This document shows positions 1,776 through 17,132 of a stretch of 64,000 bases of DNA, one piece after another; within the stretch, counting starts at the first letter, position 1, and the number at the start of each line of letters is the position of its first letter. The notes beneath the pieces were generated by a model. The model did not search any database and had not been told where the DNA came from. It saw only the letters and a program-made list of their open reading frames with translations. Both the position numbers and the translations under genes were made by a program. The stretch covers positions 1 to 64,000 of the forward strand of contig JAGXGC010000013.1 in NCBI GenBank assembly GCA_024636935.1, written 5' to 3'. The DNA comes from Sideroxydans sp. (GTDB lineage Bacteria; Pseudomonadota; Gammaproteobacteria; Burkholderiales; Gallionellaceae).

Positions 1776-2729
1776 TCAGACAGCGATCTCGACCCGGTTG
1801 CGTCCGCCTTCCTTGGCGCGGTACAGCGCCTGGTCGGCCTGGGCGAAGCTTGCTTCCAGCTGGCTCACCTCGTCGATGGGCGCGATGCCGCTGGAGACGG
1901 TGATCTTGAATGCCACGCCGTGGCTCACCACTTCGTTGGCCGCGACCATCAGGCGCAGACGTTCGGCGATGGACTTTGCTTCGTCCAGTGAGGTATCCGG
2001 CAGCAGGATGGCGAACTCTTCGCCGCCGTAGCGCACCAGCAGGTCGTGCGGGCGCAGGTTGTGCTGCATGATGGCCGCCAGCGATTTGAGCGCGGCATCA
2101 CCGACCAGATGGCCGTAGCTGTCGTTGACGCGTTTGAAATGGTCGATGTCCAGCACCATCAAGGCACTGCGCTGTTTGTTCAGTGCACAGCGGTGCAGCA
2201 CGCGCGGGAAGGCGTCGTTCATCCAGCGCCGGTTGTGCACGCCGGTGAGCGCGTCGACAGTGGCCTGATGTTCATATTGCGCGCGCTGGTTGTGGGAGGT
2301 GATGAGGGCTGAATTGTCGTTGCGCATGCGCCCGGCGATGATAGCGAGCAGGTTGCGCGCCACGTCGTGCGACTGGTCGACCAGTGACCACACCGTATCG
2401 TGCGGCACCGCCAGCACGCGCGTGGGTTTGGCGGCGACCACCAGTGCGGAAGGGTTCTTGCCGTCCACCAGCGAGATCTCGCCGGTGCATTCGCCGGCCA
2501 CCAGCAGCGCGTGTTCCACCGTCTGCTGTGCGGCCAGATGCACGCGCAGTTCGCCCTCGAGGATGAGATACAGATTGGTGTTGGGGACTTCCGGTTGCAG
2601 CAGTTTCTCACCGTCGGCCAGCGTCTGTATCTTGCTGCGTTCCAGCATGTATTCGACGCTGGTGAAGTCCACGTTGCGGAACAGCAGGTTCTGCGCGGTC
2701 AGTGCACGATCACGATCCAGCTCTTGCAT
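1776..2729 (-). CDS. Diguanylate cyclase with N-terminal cyclic-nucleotide-binding-like domain
   Basis: Predicted to make cyclic di-GMP from two GTP. Residues 1-140 form a cNMP-binding (CRP-like) beta-barrel; residues 155-317 form a GGDEF domain with the active signature GGEEF at 235-239. An inhibitory I-site RPHD sits exactly five residues upstream (226-229), so product inhibition is expected. In the N-terminal domain the phosphate cassette reads GEISLVDGKNPSALVVA: the Glu is kept, but the Arg that contacts the cyclic phosphate in CRP (position before S/T-A) is Pro here, so it may not bind cAMP. No membrane segment. The ATG is preceded by a G-rich ribosome binding site. First gene of a minus-strand pair with the Ser/Thr kinase. 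Confidence 0.88.
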   Translation of the reverse strand: MQELDRDRALTAQNLLFRNVDFTSVEYMLERSKIQTLADGEKLLQPEVPNTNLYLILEGELRVHLAAQQTVEHALLVAGECTGEISLVDGKNPSALVVAAKPTRVLAVPHDTVWSLVDQSHDVARNLLAIIAGRMRNDNSALITSHNQRAQYEHQATVDALTGVHNRRWMNDAFPRVLHRCALNKQRSALMVLDIDHFKRVNDSYGHLVGDAALKSLAAIMQHNLRPHDLLVRYGGEEFAILLPDTSLDEAKSIAERLRLMVAANEVVSHGVAFKITVSSGIAPIDEVSQLEASFAQADQALYRAKEGGRNRVEIAV

Positions 2730-2749: not shown

Positions 2750-3619
2750 TCAACGGAACACGATGGTCTTGTTGCCGCACACCAGCACACGGTCCTCCAC
2801 ATGGTAACGCAGTCCGCGCGCCAGCACGGTCTTCTCGATGTCGCGCCCGTAACGCACCAGATCGTCCGGCGTGTCGCCGTGGTCGATGCGCACCGTGTCC
2901 TGCTCGATGATGGGGCCGGCATCCAGTTCGTCGGTGACGTAGTGGCAGGTGGCACCGATCAGTTTCACGCCACGTTGGTATGCCTGATGGTATGGCTTGG
3001 CCCCGACAAAGGAGGGCAGGAAGCTGTGATGAATGTTGATGACACGACCCGGATAACGCTGGCATAGCCAAGGCGGCAAAATCTGCATGAAGCGCGCTAG
3101 CACCATTGCATCGCCTTGATGCTGATCGAACAAGGCAGCGATATGCTGGAACGCGTTTTCCTTGGATGCTGGATCGTTACTTGCCATGTCGACATGGATG
3201 AAAGGGATGCCGTGCCATTCGACGAAGCTGCGCAGATTTTCATGGTTGGAGATCACGCAGGGGATGTCCACCTGCAACTCACCGCTGCGCCAACGATGCA
3301 ACAAGTCATCCAGACAATGATCCTGCTTACTCACCAGCACCACCAATCGCTTCTTGTTGGCAGAGTCTGTCAGTTGCCATGCCATGTCGAAATCGTCAGC
3401 CAGCGGTTTGAACTTCTCGCGGAACGTCTCTGCATCAAACGGCAGTGAATCAGCACGTATCTCCTGACGCATGAAGAAACGCTGCGCTTCCAGTTCAGTG
3501 TGATAACTCGCCTCGGTGATGAATCCGCCATGTTCGGCGATGAATCCCGTAACAGCGGCGATAATGCCTGAGCGGTCAGGGCAAGTGATGGTGAGGGTGT
3601 AGCGGCGTGCGATGGTCAT
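2750..3619 (-). CDS. purU: Formyltetrahydrofolate deformylase PurU
   Basis: Hydrolyses 10-formyltetrahydrofolate to formate and tetrahydrofolate, balancing the one-carbon pool and supplying formate for purine synthesis. The N-terminal 85 residues are an ACT regulatory domain (TITCPDRSGIIAAVTGFI), followed by the formyltransferase fold with INIHHSFLPSFVGAKPYHQA and the His-Asp hydrolytic region ATCHYVTDELDAGPIIEQD. The ACT domain and the length (289 residues) separate PurU from the shorter glycinamide ribonucleotide formyltransferase PurN. The ATG has an AGGGA ribosome binding site upstream. It ends 20 bp before the diguanylate cyclase gene on the same strand and diverges from the MipA-like gene. 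Confidence 0.93.
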   Translation of the reverse strand: MTIARRYTLTITCPDRSGIIAAVTGFIAEHGGFITEASYHTELEAQRFFMRQEIRADSLPFDAETFREKFKPLADDFDMAWQLTDSANKKRLVVLVSKQDHCLDDLLHRWRSGELQVDIPCVISNHENLRSFVEWHGIPFIHVDMASNDPASKENAFQHIAALFDQHQGDAMVLARFMQILPPWLCQRYPGRVINIHHSFLPSFVGAKPYHQAYQRGVKLIGATCHYVTDELDAGPIIEQDTVRIDHGDTPDDLVRYGRDIEKTVLARGLRYHVEDRVLVCGNKTIVFR

Positions 3620-5789: not shown

Positions 5790-7388
5790 TTACTCTTCTG
5801 CGCCTTGGCTGCGCAGGTATTCTTCGTAGGTGCCGTGGTAATCAGTCACGCCCTTGTCGGAGATCTCGATGATGCGCGTAGCCAGCGATGACACAAACTC
5901 ACGGTCATGCGACACGAAGATCAGTGTGCCCTTGAACAGATCGAGCGCGGTGTTCAATGATTCGATGGCTTCCATGTCCATGTGGTTGGTCGGCTCGTCC
6001 ATCAGCAGCACGTTGGGTTTGGCCAGCATTAGCTTGCCGAACAGCATACGGCCCTTCTCGCCACCGGACAGCACTTTCACGCGCTTCTTCACATCGTCAC
6101 CGGAGAACAGCAGACGACCCAGCGTGCCGCGCACGACTTGGTCGTCGTCGGACGGACCACGCCAGTCGGTCATCCATTCCATCATCACTTTGTCTTCGGC
6201 GAAGTCGTGCCCATGATCCTGCGCGTAATAGCCGAGCTTGGCTTTTTCCGCCCACTTGATAGTGCCAGTATCTGCTTCCAAATCACCTGCCAAACAGCGC
6301 AGCAAAGTCGTCTTACCGATACCGTTGGGGCCGATGATGGCGACCTTCTCGCCCGCATCAATGCGGAAGTTGACGCTGGAGAACAACATCTTGTCGTAGC
6401 CCTTAGCCATCTTCTGAACTTCGACGGCGGTACGGTGCAGCTTCTCACGCTCGTCGTATTCAAAGCGGATGAACGGGTACTGACGGCTGGAAGGTTTGAT
6501 GTCTTCGATCTTGATCTTGTCGATCTGGCGCGCACGTGAGGTCGCTTGCTTGGCCTTGGATGCATTGGCCGAGAAACGTGCCACGAAGGCTTTCAACTCA
6601 GCGACCTTTTCTTTGGCTTTAGCGTTGTCCGAGGATTGCTGTTCGCGTGCTTGCGTCGAGGCCAGCATGTAGTCGTTATAGTTACCCGGATAGACCGTGA
6701 TCTTGCCGAAGTCCAAGTCCGCCATGTGCGTACATACGCTGTTCAAAAAGTGGCGGTCGTGAGAGATGATGACCATGGTCGAATTGCGCGCGTTGAGGAT
6801 GTTTTCCAACCAGCGGATGGTGTTGATGTCCAAGTTGTTGGTCGGTTCGTCCAGCAACAGGATGTCCGGGTTAGAGAACAGCGCCTGCGCCAACAGCACG
6901 CGCAGTTTGAAGCCCGGCGCAACCGCGCTCATCGGCCCTTGGTGCAATCCAATGTCGATACCCAAGCCCAGCAGCAATTCGCCCGCACGCGCTTCGGCGG
7001 TATAACCGTCGTATTCAGCGAAGGTCGCTTCCAGATCCGCGGCGCGCATGTAGTCTTCTTCGCTGGCATCAGGATTCGCGTAGATCGCGTCGCGCTCGCT
7101 CATCGCTTCCCACATCTCGTCGTGGCCCATCATCACCACATCCAGCACGCGATTCTCTTCATACGCGAACTGATCCTGACGCAGTTTGCCGAGACGCTCA
7201 CCGCGGTCCAACATGACTTCGCCCGAGGACTGCTCCAGATCGCGGCCGAGAATCTTCATGAAAGTGGACTTGCCGCAGCCGTTGGCGCCGATCAAACCGT
7301 AGCGGTTTCCGTCACCGAATTTGACGGAGACGTTCTCGAACAACGGCTTGGCGCCGAACTGAATGGTGATGTTTGCTGTAGATAACAT
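5790..7388 (-). CDS. ybiT: ABC-F ribosome-associated ATPase, YbiT type
   Basis: Cytoplasmic twin-ATPase of the ABC-F family, which act on the ribosome (relieving stalled or non-productive states) rather than in transport. Two nucleotide-binding domains are visible: Walker [10 protein letters not shown] near residue 36 and GPNGIGKTT near 350; Walker [12 protein letters not shown] near 180 and [11 protein letters not shown] near 460; an ABC signature LSGGEKGR in the second domain. The linker between them (about 240-310) is charged and helical, as expected for the P-site tRNA interaction motif. Length (532) and the start [18 protein letters not shown] match YbiT more than Uup or EttA. First gene of the ybiT-murI-small protein run. 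Confidence 0.9.
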
Positions 7389-7479: not shown

Positions 7480-8202
7480 ATGACCATCGAGCCGATCATG
7501 CAAGAGAAGACCATCAACATCACACAACTCGTTCAGGACAGCAACGATGGACTGAGCGCCGAAGAACGTACCGAGCTGAAGCAGCAGCTTGCCGACAAGC
7601 TGCAAGCACTTGATGCCGCTCAGAAAGCCGAACCGTTAGCGCGTGCACGGTTACAGCTGGATGCGTCCGAATTGCTGAATGCTCTTGGGCGCAGGAAGGA
7701 AGCCTGGGACATCGCCCGCGAAGCATTCTTCATCTGCATGCAACAGGAATCGTGGACGGATGCGGTAGAAGCCTGCGATGTTTTGTTCCAAGCACAGCAG
7801 CCTGATTCGCTCGCCGCGCTGGGCATGGGCATCTGGCTTTCCGTCACCTTCCCGGTCGATCCCGAGCTGACGGTCGCCATGCTGATCCACATCGTGGACG
7901 AGACACCGAACGATTCCGACGGCGCGGCGGTAGCAGCCATCACCGCGCGCTATGTGGTCGATCTGCGTGCCGACGACGAAAAACACGAGAGCCAGAGCTT
8001 CCTGGTGAACAACCTGATCGCCATGGTCGCCCAGCGCCACAGCAACGTGCAGGACCAAGAAGGGCTGGATCGCTGGCTGAACCACCTGCAACTGCGCGAC
8101 CCACAGATCTTCCTGCCGCGTCTGGCGCAAGTGGTGGATGCCATCGTGGGTGACAAGTGGTGGTTCGAGCGGGATGTGTTGCGCGCAAGACTGCCGGATT
8201 GA
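7480..8202 (+). CDS. Uncharacterised helical protein
   Basis: A 240-residue soluble protein that I do not recognise. The sequence is rich in Ala, Leu, Glu and Asp and reads as successive amphipathic helices, with a TPR-like look around residues 50-110 (ARLQLDASELLNALGRRKEA and following). No signal peptide, membrane segment or catalytic motif is seen. The ATG at 7480 opens the frame; the ATG at 7498 is an alternative start and neither has a strong ribosome binding site. It stands alone between the divergent ybiT and the riboswitch leader of the next gene, with no co-directional close neighbour. Confidence 0.75.
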   Translation: MTIEPIMQEKTINITQLVQDSNDGLSAEERTELKQQLADKLQALDAAQKAEPLARARLQLDASELLNALGRRKEAWDIAREAFFICMQQESWTDAVEACDVLFQAQQPDSLAALGMGIWLSVTFPVDPELTVAMLIHIVDETPNDSDGAAVAAITARYVVDLRADDEKHESQSFLVNNLIAMVAQRHSNVQDQEGLDRWLNHLQLRDPQIFLPRLAQVVDAIVGDKWWFERDVLRARLPD

Positions 8203-8266
8203 CCTATCTCCCCCACAACAACACTGCGCATCCCTGATCGAATCACGCCGTTCGGCCTCGTTTACG

Positions 8267-8295
8267 TTGACGTTGCACAAGCGCTTCCGTTAAAG
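8267..8295 (+). promoter_or_regulatory. Possible promoter for the riboswitch-controlled operon
   Basis: TTGACG (8267-8272) is a good -35 element; 17 bp on lies TTAAAG (8290-8295), a poor -10. A short inverted repeat GTTGAT/ATCAAC (8309-8326) follows before the aptamer. It is placed correctly for a leader RNA that begins just before the riboswitch. Confidence 0.3.
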
Positions 8296-8327
8296 TTCGC
8301 CTGCAATTGTTGATTTCACTATCAACG

Positions 8328-8427
8328 CCTGCACGGGCAAACCCGCCGAAAGGCGGGGACGCAAAGCTACCGGGCTAAGGGATATCCATCCTAATCGACT
8401 CAGTCGAGTGCCAGCGGGGCCGCCAGG
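8328..8427 (+). promoter_or_regulatory. Cyclic di-GMP-I (GEMM-I) riboswitch
   Basis: The conserved blocks of the GEMM-I aptamer appear in order: GCACGGGCAAACC, a GAAA-capped stem (CCCGCCGAAAGGCGGG), GACGCAAAGC, CCGGGCTAA, then a second variable helix (CGACTCAGTCG) and the closing CCAGCGGGGCCGCC. CCTG (8328-8331) can pair with CAGG (8424-8427) as the outer stem. Downstream, TTCTCC (8428-8433) and CTCCT (8451-8455) are both complementary to the ribosome binding site AGGAG at 8481-8485, which suggests control of translation of the histidine kinase gene; no strong terminator is seen. A palindrome CCACAT/ATGTGG lies at 8432-8445. The direction of the response (on or off) cannot be read with certainty. 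Confidence 0.88.
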
Positions 8428-8493
8428 TTCTCCACATCCATGTGGTCTTACTCCTTGCGTTGTCCGCGCGGCTTATCGCCAGGAGAGATGCAC

Positions 8494-9186
8494 ATGCAAC
8501 AAACTGAAGACCTCAGCTTTTCCGATTTCATCGCGTCGTCCATCCACGACATGAAGAACTCGCTCAACATTCAGGTCGGTTTTCTCGAACACCTGATGCA
8601 CTCGTATCACGACAAGGTTGATTCAAGCACGCTGGATCAACTCGGCCACACCATCTACGAAGCCGGTCGCATGAACGTGAATCTGGTGCAGATACTCAGC
8701 CTCTACAAACTGGGCAACTCCATCTATCCCATCGACATCAGCGAACGCTCGGTCACGGAGGTGCTGGAGGAAGTAGTGTTGCAGAACCAGTCGATCATGA
8801 AGCACAAAGGCATTGAGATCATCGTGGATTGCGCGCCCAGTCATTACTGGTATTTCGATCGTGACTTGGTTGGCGGCGTATTGGTCAACGCACTCAATAA
8901 TGCCTACAACTACACACAGGACAAGATCCGCATCGCCGCCGACATCCGCGACGGCCAGCTGGAAATTCGCGTGGAAGACAACGGTAAGGGCTATCCCGCC
9001 CGCATGCTGAACGAGAACGTCGACTGCAACAAAGGCATCAATTTCTCCACCGGCAGCACCGGGCTGGGTTTCTATTTCTCTTCACGCGTTGCTGCGATGC
9101 ACAAGAACGGCGAGCGGCAAGGCGTGCTCACGATCGAGAATGGCGGCGCATACGGCGGCGGCTGTTTCGTGCTCACCCTGCCCTGA
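8494..9186 (+). CDS. Soluble sensor histidine kinase without a sensor domain
   Basis: A minimal two-component kinase. The phosphoacceptor His is H18 in SSIHDMKNSLN. The ATPase domain has an N-box GVLVNALNNAYNYT (about 127-140), a G1 box VEDNGKGYP and a G2 box STGLGFYFSS near 190. There is no sensory or membrane segment, so the input must come from a partner or from the level of the protein itself. The ATG at 8494 was chosen because AGGAGAG lies six bases upstream; an earlier in-frame ATG at 8440 falls inside the leader hairpin. The gene follows a c-di-GMP riboswitch, and the receiver-TPR gene starts 22 bp after it, which makes that protein its likely phosphorylation target. Confidence 0.88.
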   Translation: MQQTEDLSFSDFIASSIHDMKNSLNIQVGFLEHLMHSYHDKVDSSTLDQLGHTIYEAGRMNVNLVQILSLYKLGNSIYPIDISERSVTEVLEEVVLQNQSIMKHKGIEIIVDCAPSHYWYFDRDLVGGVLVNALNNAYNYTQDKIRIAADIRDGQLEIRVEDNGKGYPARMLNENVDCNKGINFSTGSTGLGFYFSSRVAAMHKNGERQGVLTIENGGAYGGGCFVLTLP

Positions 9187-9208
9187 TCATTTTCCAAGGA
9201 ACCGAACC

Positions 9209-10822
9209 ATGACGATCTCTCTCTCCCAATCCAGCACGCTGGTCATCGACGATTTCCAGAGCATGCGCTCGATGATCATGGGCTTCCTCAAGTCCATGGG
9301 CGTCACTAACATCAGCAACGTCGGCACCGCACGCGAAGCGCTGGAACTGCTGTCCTCCAAGAAATTCGATCTGGTCATCTGCGACTACAACCTGGGTCAG
9401 GGCCAGAACGGCCAACAGATTCTGGAAGAGGCACGACACAAGCGCTACATCGGCCATTCCACGGTATGGATGATGGTCACGGCGGAGAAGACCATGGATA
9501 TGTTCATGGGCGCCGCCGAAGCCAAGCCCGACGATTACCTGCTCAAGCCGGTAACGGAAGCCATGCTGAGTTCGCGCCTGAACAAACTGTTCGAGAAGAA
9601 GCGTACGTTGGAGCCGGTCGAGAAGGCAGTGAAGTCGCGTAACTATGCACACGCCATCAAACTGTGCGAAGCACAACTGGCCACACCTTCGGCCAACACG
9701 CAGGAGCTACAACGCATCAAGAGCGACCTGCTTATCAACAGCGGCGACTTTGCCACCGCCAAGACATTCCTCGGCGGCCTTCTGGCCGTGCGCAACATCC
9801 CTTGGGTAAAGACCAGTCTGGGAAAGGTGCTTTACCTGAGCAAGGATTACCTCAAGGCACGCGAGTTGTTCGAGGAGGTGTTGCAGGAGAACAAGATGTA
9901 TCTGGAAGCCGCAGACTGGCTGGCGAAAACGCTGGATGCGCTGGGCGAAAACGCGTTAGCACAGTCGGTGCTGGAAAAAGCAATGGCGTTGTCGCCCAAT
10001 GCCACACAGCGCCAGCAGAGTCTGGCCGACGCCGCTCTCAAGAACGGTGCATTGGAGCTCGCCCAGTCCGCCTACGAGAAGGCGATCAAGCTCGGCGAAT
10101 TCTCGGTGCATAAGAACGCAGCCACCTTTGCTGGTCTGGCCAAGGTGCTGACCGTGCAGGACGACCCTGAGCAGGCACTTAAGATCCTGTCACGCAGCCG
10201 CAGCGAATTCAAGGACGATGCGGCGGCCGCTTTGCAAACCGCTGTGGCCGAAAGCCTTGCGCACTACAAGCTGGGCGATACGGAGCAGGCTCTGGTTAGC
10301 TTGCAGGAAGCGGAAGCGCTGATCGGCGCGAGTGAGCAAGACACCAGCGTGGGCACCACGCTCGATATGGCCCACATGATGTTCCAACTCGGACAAAAGG
10401 AGAAAGCCTGCGGTTTGCTGGAAAGCGTAGTGCGGAACAACCACGAGAACCGCTCCGTACTGCAACGTGTCGAAACGGCATTCGAGGATGCCGGTATGGC
10501 TGAAGAGGGTCTCGCCTTGATCCAGAAAGCGACCAAGGAAGTGATCGATACTAACAATCAGGGTGTGGCACTGGCCAACGAGGGCAAATTCGAAGAAGGC
10601 ATCCGCCTAATCCGCAAGGCGCTGCAGGCCATGCCCAACAACGACCTGATGATGACCAACCTGTGCGGCATGATGATCGGCACGATGCACCGTACCGGCA
10701 AAGATGACCGCATGCTGTTCGAAGCGGGCGAACTGCTGGAGCGTGTAAGCCGCATCAACCCCGTCAACAAGAAATACCACCAATATGTAACCTTGCTCGG
10801 CAAGATGTCAGCGACTGATTGA
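9209..10822 (+). CDS. Response regulator with receiver domain and TPR repeats
   Basis: CheY-like receiver (residues 6-130) followed by about 400 residues of tetratricopeptide-like helical pairs, with no DNA-binding or enzymatic output domain. Receiver residues are complete: D14/D15, phosphorylatable D59 in VICDYN, a Thr in MVTAEK and Lys in LLKPV. The TPR part contains repeated A-x-x-x-[FYL]-[EQ] helices (for example AKTFLGGLLA, ARELFEEVLQ, AQSVLEKAMA), so output is probably protein binding. The architecture resembles Vibrio VieB (known family example). The ATG at 9209 after AAGGA gives the standard start of a receiver domain; the frame is open further upstream but overlaps the kinase gene. 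It belongs to the c-di-GMP riboswitch operon. Confidence 0.88.
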   Translation: MTISLSQSSTLVIDDFQSMRSMIMGFLKSMGVTNISNVGTAREALELLSSKKFDLVICDYNLGQGQNGQQILEEARHKRYIGHSTVWMMVTAEKTMDMFMGAAEAKPDDYLLKPVTEAMLSSRLNKLFEKKRTLEPVEKAVKSRNYAHAIKLCEAQLATPSANTQELQRIKSDLLINSGDFATAKTFLGGLLAVRNIPWVKTSLGKVLYLSKDYLKARELFEEVLQENKMYLEAADWLAKTLDALGENALAQSVLEKAMALSPNATQRQQSLADAALKNGALELAQSAYEKAIKLGEFSVHKNAATFAGLAKVLTVQDDPEQALKILSRSRSEFKDDAAAALQTAVAESLAHYKLGDTEQALVSLQEAEALIGASEQDTSVGTTLDMAHMMFQLGQKEKACGLLESVVRNNHENRSVLQRVETAFEDAGMAEEGLALIQKATKEVIDTNNQGVALANEGKFEEGIRLIRKALQAMPNNDLMMTNLCGMMIGTMHRTGKDDRMLFEAGELLERVSRINPVNKKYHQYVTLLGKMSATD

Positions 10823-17002: not shown

Positions 17003-17031
17003 TTGACAGCCCTCGCCAAAACACGGACACT
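17003..17031 (+). promoter_or_regulatory. Probable promoter of metX-metW
   Basis: A perfect -35 TTGACA (17003-17008) and, 17 bp on, GACACT (17026-17031) as a weak -10. Transcription would begin about 17038, directly at the SAM-II aptamer. Confidence 0.5.
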
Positions 17032-17033
17032 TC

Positions 17034-17090
17034 GTCCCGTGCCGATTTGAGATCAGCTTGCGGGGCACGTTAAACATTCCAGCTAAAGCG
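17034..17090 (+). promoter_or_regulatory. SAM-II riboswitch upstream of metX
   Basis: The invariant blocks of the SAM-II (metA/SAM-alpha) aptamer are present with right order and spacing: GCCGATTTGAG, CTTGC, GGCACGTTAAAC and CAGCTAAAG. CGTGCC (17038-17043) pairs with GGCACG (17064-17069) as the first stem, and the GCTAAAG tail supplies the pseudoknot strand. It binds S-adenosylmethionine in known examples and turns down methionine genes. Here it leads straight into a terminator hairpin. AAGCGAG at its 3' end can pair with CTC-TA-GCTT of that hairpin, which would form an antiterminator when SAM is absent (inference). Confidence 0.82.
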
Positions 17091-17095
17091 AGACG

Positions 17096-17132
17096 ACCCG
17101 CTCTAGCTTCAAGCTGAGCGGGTTTTGTTTTT
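17096..17132 (+). terminator. Regulated intrinsic terminator in the metX leader
   Basis: Stem ACCCGCTC/GAGCGGGT extended by AGC/GCT around a TTCAA loop, followed by TTTTGTTTTT. It ends 11 bp before the metX start codon, so it must be the expression platform of the riboswitch rather than the end of an upstream gene. Confidence 0.8.

Follow-up and report, generated by a model that had tools for sequence, protein, structure and literature searches.

A conserved c-di-GMP-I class aptamer ahead of a sensorless histidine kinase and receiver-TPR gene pair in Gallionellaceae

The aptamer and the gene pair

In a stretch of 64,000 nucleotides from Sideroxydans sp. (Gallionellaceae; GenBank assembly GCA_024636935.1, contig JAGXGC010000013.1, positions 1 to 64,000; hereafter the window), an RNA aptamer of the cyclic di-GMP-I (c-di-GMP-I, or GEMM-I) riboswitch class lies directly ahead of two genes on the same strand, the first encoding a histidine kinase without a sensor domain and the second a response regulator composed of a receiver and TPR repeats. 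This arrangement had been proposed in a sequence-only reading of the same DNA, together with the idea that the second messenger sets how much of the pair is made. Here, we examine the locus computationally and in comparison with related genomes.

The whole window was searched against Rfam using cmscan, and positions 8200-8560 were additionally scanned with permissive settings. Two matches in the window exceed their cut-offs, SAM_alpha at 17029-17103 and RF01051 at 8326-8427 (+), the latter with 62.2 bits for a gathering cut-off of 35 and an E-value of 8.9e-10. We aligned 26 GEMM-I aptamers, comprising nine kinase leaders, the two other aptamers of the window's genome and 15 of 30 fetched loci. 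Pairing in helices P2 and P3 is standard in 99.8% of cells, with double-sided changes in seven pairs and a covariation score matched by none of 500 shuffles, and P2 carries its GNRA tetraloop. The ligand-contact columns 11, 38 and 100, which we take to be positions G20, A47 and C92, are occupied in the window by G, A and C, corresponding to the c-di-GMP type. By its RF01051 score and these canonical contacts, the element is a genuine c-di-GMP-I class aptamer, and from the same residues we infer that its ligand is c-di-GMP. With described RF01051 riboswitches it shares the consensus, the P2/P3 structure, the GAAA tetraloop, the three contacts and the position in the 5' untranslated region (UTR). 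It differs from them by a conserved 5' hairpin, by its target and by an insertion in P3 that, by eye, reads as an extra hairpin and is found in 10 of the 26 aptamers (all nine kinase leaders and the motB leader L003).

The kinase gene (8494-9186, +) encodes 230 amino acids, with H18 in the H-box followed by N and G boxes. Its open reading frame (ORF) spans 8440-9186; the start at 8494 is the most likely, since a 95%-identical orthologue has ATT in place of the ATG at 8488; the starts at 8440 and 8488 were set aside. HATPase_c (42.6 bits) is the only Pfam domain above cut-off. A profile built from 68 homologous segments (the matched parts rather than full frames) matches solved kinase constructs made up of the dimerization and histidine phosphotransfer (DHp) and catalytic (CA) domains, SrrB (6paj) among them, the alignment running from position 6 to 225 of 225, and H18, N136, D162, G166, G190 and G192 are invariant in all 68 segments. 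Because only 17 residues precede the H-box histidine, there is no space for a sensor domain, and the profile covers DHp and CA only; the kinase thus lacks any input domain (sensor or transmembrane), a feature that histidine kinases may or may not have, and in this agrees with the sequence-only reading.

The second gene (9209-10822, +) encodes a 537-residue response regulator, identified by Pfam and by profile, whose matches above cut-off are limited to Response_reg, TPR and a TPR-like repeat (ANAPC3), with no DNA-binding domain among them. Its profile aligns with CheY over positions 5-128 and also with TPR superhelices, and D14, D15, D59 and K113, which supply the acid pocket, the phosphoacceptor aspartate and the lysine of a receiver, are invariant in 35 of 35 homologues.

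Distribution of the pair and of the riboswitch

Three overlapping sets of loci were compared, namely the best 80 of 581 kinase loci (the named loci), a sample of 200 genomes of the order and a sample of 158 genomes of the family. Kinase homologues occur in 35 of the order genomes and 29 of the family genomes, and RF01051 is present in 106 of the latter. Of 81 kinase loci, 79 also contain a receiver-TPR homologue with a match longer than 250 residues, and the two exceptions (L123, L151) are on short contigs; in eight more distant named loci the receiver-TPR gene comes before the kinase (L124, L128, L136, L145, L147, L149, L153, L162).

Among pairs with a kinase identity of at least 70%, nine out of ten, window included, have the aptamer, which lies ahead of the kinase in eight of nine relatives (L064-L071); the arrangement therefore recurs in related genomes, as anticipated. 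The ninth relative, L072, retains an intact pair and a decayed GEMM-I remnant at 1299-1355 (8.8 bits, E-value 0.005 in 371 bases), apparently a natural loss of the switch. Within the 80 named loci the aptamer precedes the kinase in seven, L093 and L083-L088, the last six being contigs of six of the same close relatives. Sorted by kinase identity, it is found in 6/7 named loci at 70% or above, 1/29 at 54-69% and 0/44 below that.

The only more distant pair searched that has an aptamer is L093, from a Rhodoferax metagenome-assembled genome. Its aptamer has a plain P3 with no insertion, which makes it another subtype, and no other GEMM-I turned up in that genome among the 150 of 394 candidates scored; both observations suggest an independent recruitment in Rhodoferax, with transfer as the alternative. 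No significant aptamer match was obtained in 29 order loci (L005-L033, of which L005-L024 were also searched by Rfam) or in 10 family loci (L073-L082), the best scoring 14.2 bits (E-value 0.064), the searched stretch leaving most of the true operon leader outside in the 15 order loci where the receiver-TPR gene is first (L018-L022, L024-L033), as well as in the named loci L128 and L147. Near one of the GEMM-I-free pairs, in family locus L075, positions 3381-3460 (+) match the S-adenosylhomocysteine (SAH) riboswitch family RF01057 with 56.8 bits.

A DNA-level check of the 80 named kinase homologues shows that 75 have a frame that could not be extended at the N-terminus by more than 60 residues; such an extension could be held by the other five (L091, L104, L122, L129, L138) and likewise by L017, L018 and L023 of the order sample. 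It had been suggested that synthesis of the pair under riboswitch control stands in for ligand sensing by the kinase. We reject this idea because most aptamer-free homologues are equally sensorless, the aptamer being present in 7 of the 80 loci and room for a sensor being absent in 75. For the same reason, the lack of a sensor looks ancestral and the riboswitch looks like a later, clade-limited addition.

Leader pairing and the direction of control

The feature is real and conserved in this clade, and it is probably functional. Its conserved position, intact ligand contacts and conserved leader give good support to the earlier proposal that c-di-GMP controls the operon, so that the second messenger probably sets the amount of the kinase/receiver-TPR pair made.

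The region marked in the sequence-only reading begins with a predicted promoter composed of a -35 box, TTGACG, at 8267-8272 (+) and, 18 nucleotides further, a -10-like box, TAAAGT, at 8291-8296 (+). The two boxes together agree with the consensus at 9 of 12 positions, and they form the sole promoter-like pair that a consensus scan finds in 8203-8560 (shuffle mean 0.2). TTGACG is kept in nine of ten aligned leaders, and the -10-like box reads TAAAGT, TACAGT, TAGAGT or TACATT among relatives. A 6-base-pair hairpin recognized by its conservation across leaders, P0 (GTTGAT/ATCAAC, 8309-8326, +), abuts the aptamer; 97.9% of its cells are paired over eight distinct leaders, with compensatory changes in three pairs, every one from the single leader L069. 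Beyond the aptamer, the Shine-Dalgarno sequence AGGAG lies at 8481-8485 (+), and its predicted accessibility falls from 0.33 to 0.07 when the aptamer helices are enforced.

Our preferred reading, to which we assign a probability of roughly 55%, is that a c-di-GMP-I riboswitch in the 5' UTR adjusts translation of the two-gene operon, most likely as an OFF switch. In the absence of ligand, a strand of the post-aptamer spacer (CTCCTTGCGT in the window, CTTTGCGT in some relatives) would pair with the aptamer core (GGACGCAAAG) and the Shine-Dalgarno sequence would be free. Binding of c-di-GMP would lock the core, and the released spacer strand would then pair with the Shine-Dalgarno sequence. High c-di-GMP would lower the kinase/receiver-TPR pair and, through a sister riboswitch described below, likewise the stator protein MotB.

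Spacer pairing was evaluated in 14 leaders by comparing duplex energies with 1000 shuffles per leader for five segments; L064, a near copy of the window, was excluded from the combined p-values, leaving 13 leaders, and the 14 include neither the orphan L085m nor the hemerythrin leader L001h. Competition with the aptamer core gives a combined p of 0.0015 (one of the five segments), or 0.017 with kinase leaders only. The motif CTTTGC, which is complementary to GCAAAG of the core and was selected post hoc, is present in 6 of 13 spacers compared with 0.52 expected, a count reached by none of 3000 shuffle sets, and the complementarity extends to 9-10 bases in L065, L067 and L087m. In L065, the Shine-Dalgarno region itself reads ACGCAAAGGGA and mimics the aptamer core. 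Furthermore, six of the 14 leaders (window, L065, L067, L070, L071, L088m) lose at least 0.23 of Shine-Dalgarno accessibility once the aptamer helices are enforced, each of these drops being at or below 6% of 120 shuffles (3% for the window). Competition of the spacer with the 5' side of P1-P2, the P3 loop or the 3' side of P3 was rejected on combined p-values of 0.48, 0.34 and 0.29, respectively; single leaders stand out for the P3 loop (L071, 0.002) and the P3 3' side (L070, 0.005).

Several observations weigh against a translational OFF switch of this kind. Complementarity between spacer and Shine-Dalgarno sequence is weak (p 0.029 over the 13 leaders, rising to 0.22 when restricted to kinase leaders), and in the window by itself both spacer/core and spacer/Shine-Dalgarno complementarity are at chance (p 0.37 each, dinucleotide shuffles). 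There is no clear switching in 8 of the 14 leaders (L064, L066, L068, L069, L093, L087m, L163m, L003m), including that of the nearest sister, L064, whose leader is almost identical to that of the window. The start codon becomes more accessible with the aptamer enforced in L071 (0.47 to 0.66) and L088m (0.37 to 0.72). The spacers of kinase and motB leaders seem to share ancestry and are therefore not independent, and the folding model omits tertiary contacts and ligand energy.

These points bear directly on the two short anti-ribosome-binding-site segments from which the sequence-only reading had argued for a translational switch. Both segments are present (TTCTCC at 8428-8433, CTCCT at 8451-8455), but their complementarity in the window is no better than that of shuffles, and the window-only argument was dropped. 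The switch itself stays plausible on comparative grounds, with the window's own insignificant pairing and its non-switching near-copy on the other side. Within the window, the strand CTCCTTGCGT at 8451-8460 (+), whose TTGCGT complements ACGCAA of the core and which is similar to CTTTGCGT in relatives, is a candidate for the anti-Shine-Dalgarno and anti-core role, and we place moderate confidence in the OFF direction there, by analogy with other leaders as much as from its own sequence.

The foremost alternative, which we consider about half as probable, is an ON switch that also binds c-di-GMP and raises the pair at high c-di-GMP, as negative feedback or as a sensor of the biofilm state. Direction varies within the class: the available text of PMC12564702 describes Vc2 of Vibrio cholerae as a gene-on switch, and that of PMC9495176 describes the class I switches of Clostridioides difficile as off switches. 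The eight leaders giving no direction and the more accessible start codons of L071 and L088m would suit an ON switch, but the enforced aptamer hides the Shine-Dalgarno sequence in all six clearly changing leaders, and the largest opposite change among the other eight is +0.03.

It is rather unlikely that c-di-GMP acts on transcription, through Rho-dependent termination, or on mRNA stability, with the spacer pairings being incidental. Such a mechanism would fit spacers that diverge in both sequence and length and pair at chance in the window, and the conserved 5' hairpin could protect the RNA; the recurrence of a motif complementary to the aptamer core speaks against it, as does the lack of any terminator-like site in a consensus scan of 8203-8560, which counts against intrinsic rather than Rho-dependent termination.

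A different ligand, either another cyclic dinucleotide such as cyclic GMP-AMP (cGAMP) or that of an altered-ligand variant of the RF03167 (c-di-GMP-I-GGC) type, is very improbable from the contact residues: RF03167 reaches 58 bits in the window (permissive scan; cut-off 59), the match listed for L067 (63.6) is to this family, A20-type aptamers exist among GEMM-I, and both variant types share the architecture and most of the core, but the window has A47 where the RF03167 consensus has G, and G20 where cGAMP types have A.

Link to motB and comparison with known systems

Returning to c-di-GMP control of the kinase operon, the locus is tied to a second GEMM-I target. In L087, L088 and L163, another GEMM-I lies directly 3' of the receiver-TPR gene and 5' of motB, whose product in L088 has plug and OmpA domains (Pfam). 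In L084 and L086 motB follows the pair without a second aptamer. The window's genome and its sister have motB at another site, each time behind a separate GEMM-I that belongs to the same length class (L003, L169). In L085 the receiver-TPR gene is followed by an orphan GEMM-I (6397-6498) and then, in place of motB, by a convergent gene that by eye is trkH-like.

The window's genome has a third GEMM-I, which stands ahead of a gene for a hemerythrin-domain protein. Further targets in the family, for which 10 of 31 first genes were scanned, include receiver-domain proteins of about 290 amino acids (L034, L039, L042), a nucleotide cyclase (L036), FliL (L050) and HlyD (L038). Given these receiver and cyclase targets, GEMM-I control of signalling proteins is not confined to the kinase operon. 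Aptamers with A at position 20 (L036, L055, L062) and with G (L035, L040, L049, L051, L052) stand before proteins with similar N-termini, which may reflect mixed c-di-GMP/cGAMP specificity; the one such protein scanned, that of L036, is an ankyrin/class III nucleotide cyclase.

The flanks of more distant pairs weigh against a motility role: motility genes are not enriched among 107 flanking proteins, which were selected by hand out of 189 and come from 36 of the 42 loci of more than 8 kb in the range L090-L162. Two of the 107 match MCPsignal, and the families considered were the first 25 of 121. Motility neighbours of these pairs were accordingly rejected as support.

Among known systems, VieB of the VieSAB system of Vibrio cholerae is the closest in design: according to PMC4352251, its receiver lies at the N-terminus, ahead of a TPR domain, it lacks a DNA-binding domain, and it binds a histidine kinase. 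VieB, which inhibits autophosphorylation of its partner kinase, serves as an accessory to a complex sensor kinase and to a regulator with c-di-GMP phosphodiesterase function, whereas here a kinase of DHp and CA only is the sole neighbouring partner; the likeness is one of domain architecture, not of sequence comparison. EmbRS of Rubrivivax was dropped as a homologue, as the available text of PMC3684757 does not present EmbR as a receiver-TPR protein. The literature searched holds no description of a GEMM-I riboswitch before a sensorless kinase/receiver-TPR pair, a weak absence given that most subscription papers were outside its scope, and none of a function for the pair. The riboswitch class is thus known, and the target pair is unusual and new to us.

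If the proposed control is correct, c-di-GMP would act on RNA to set the dosage of an entire two-component pathway, in a clade where it seems to regulate a stator protein too, through a sister riboswitch. As the searched literature describes no function for the pair, the riboswitch-bearing clade offers a testable clue to a role in the motile-sessile decision. The more striking part is the testable hypothesis of a c-di-GMP-controlled sensorless kinase pair tied genetically to a c-di-GMP-controlled MotB. More speculatively, and in our estimate doubtful as a whole, paired Gallionellaceae riboswitches would jointly draw down MotB and a soluble kinase/receiver-TPR module acting on the motor or its assembly, gating the two-component pathway by dosage; the Shine-Dalgarno sequence of some leaders would mimic the ligand-binding core so that one spacer strand reads its occupancy, and Rhodoferax would have recruited a different GEMM-I subtype independently.

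Three further features lie in the window. About 6 kb from the riboswitch, 1776-2729 (-) encodes a diguanylate cyclase (GGDEF) with an N-terminal cyclic-nucleotide-binding domain. On the 5' side of the riboswitch, a 240-amino-acid ORF (7480-8202, +) has no Pfam domain above cut-off and has homologues in L064/L083 and also in L047, near another GEMM-I. Finally, the SAM_alpha match (RF00521, + strand, 39.5 bits, cut-off 36) belongs to a family named for alphaproteobacteria; the relatives of the window's genome are Gallionellaceae.

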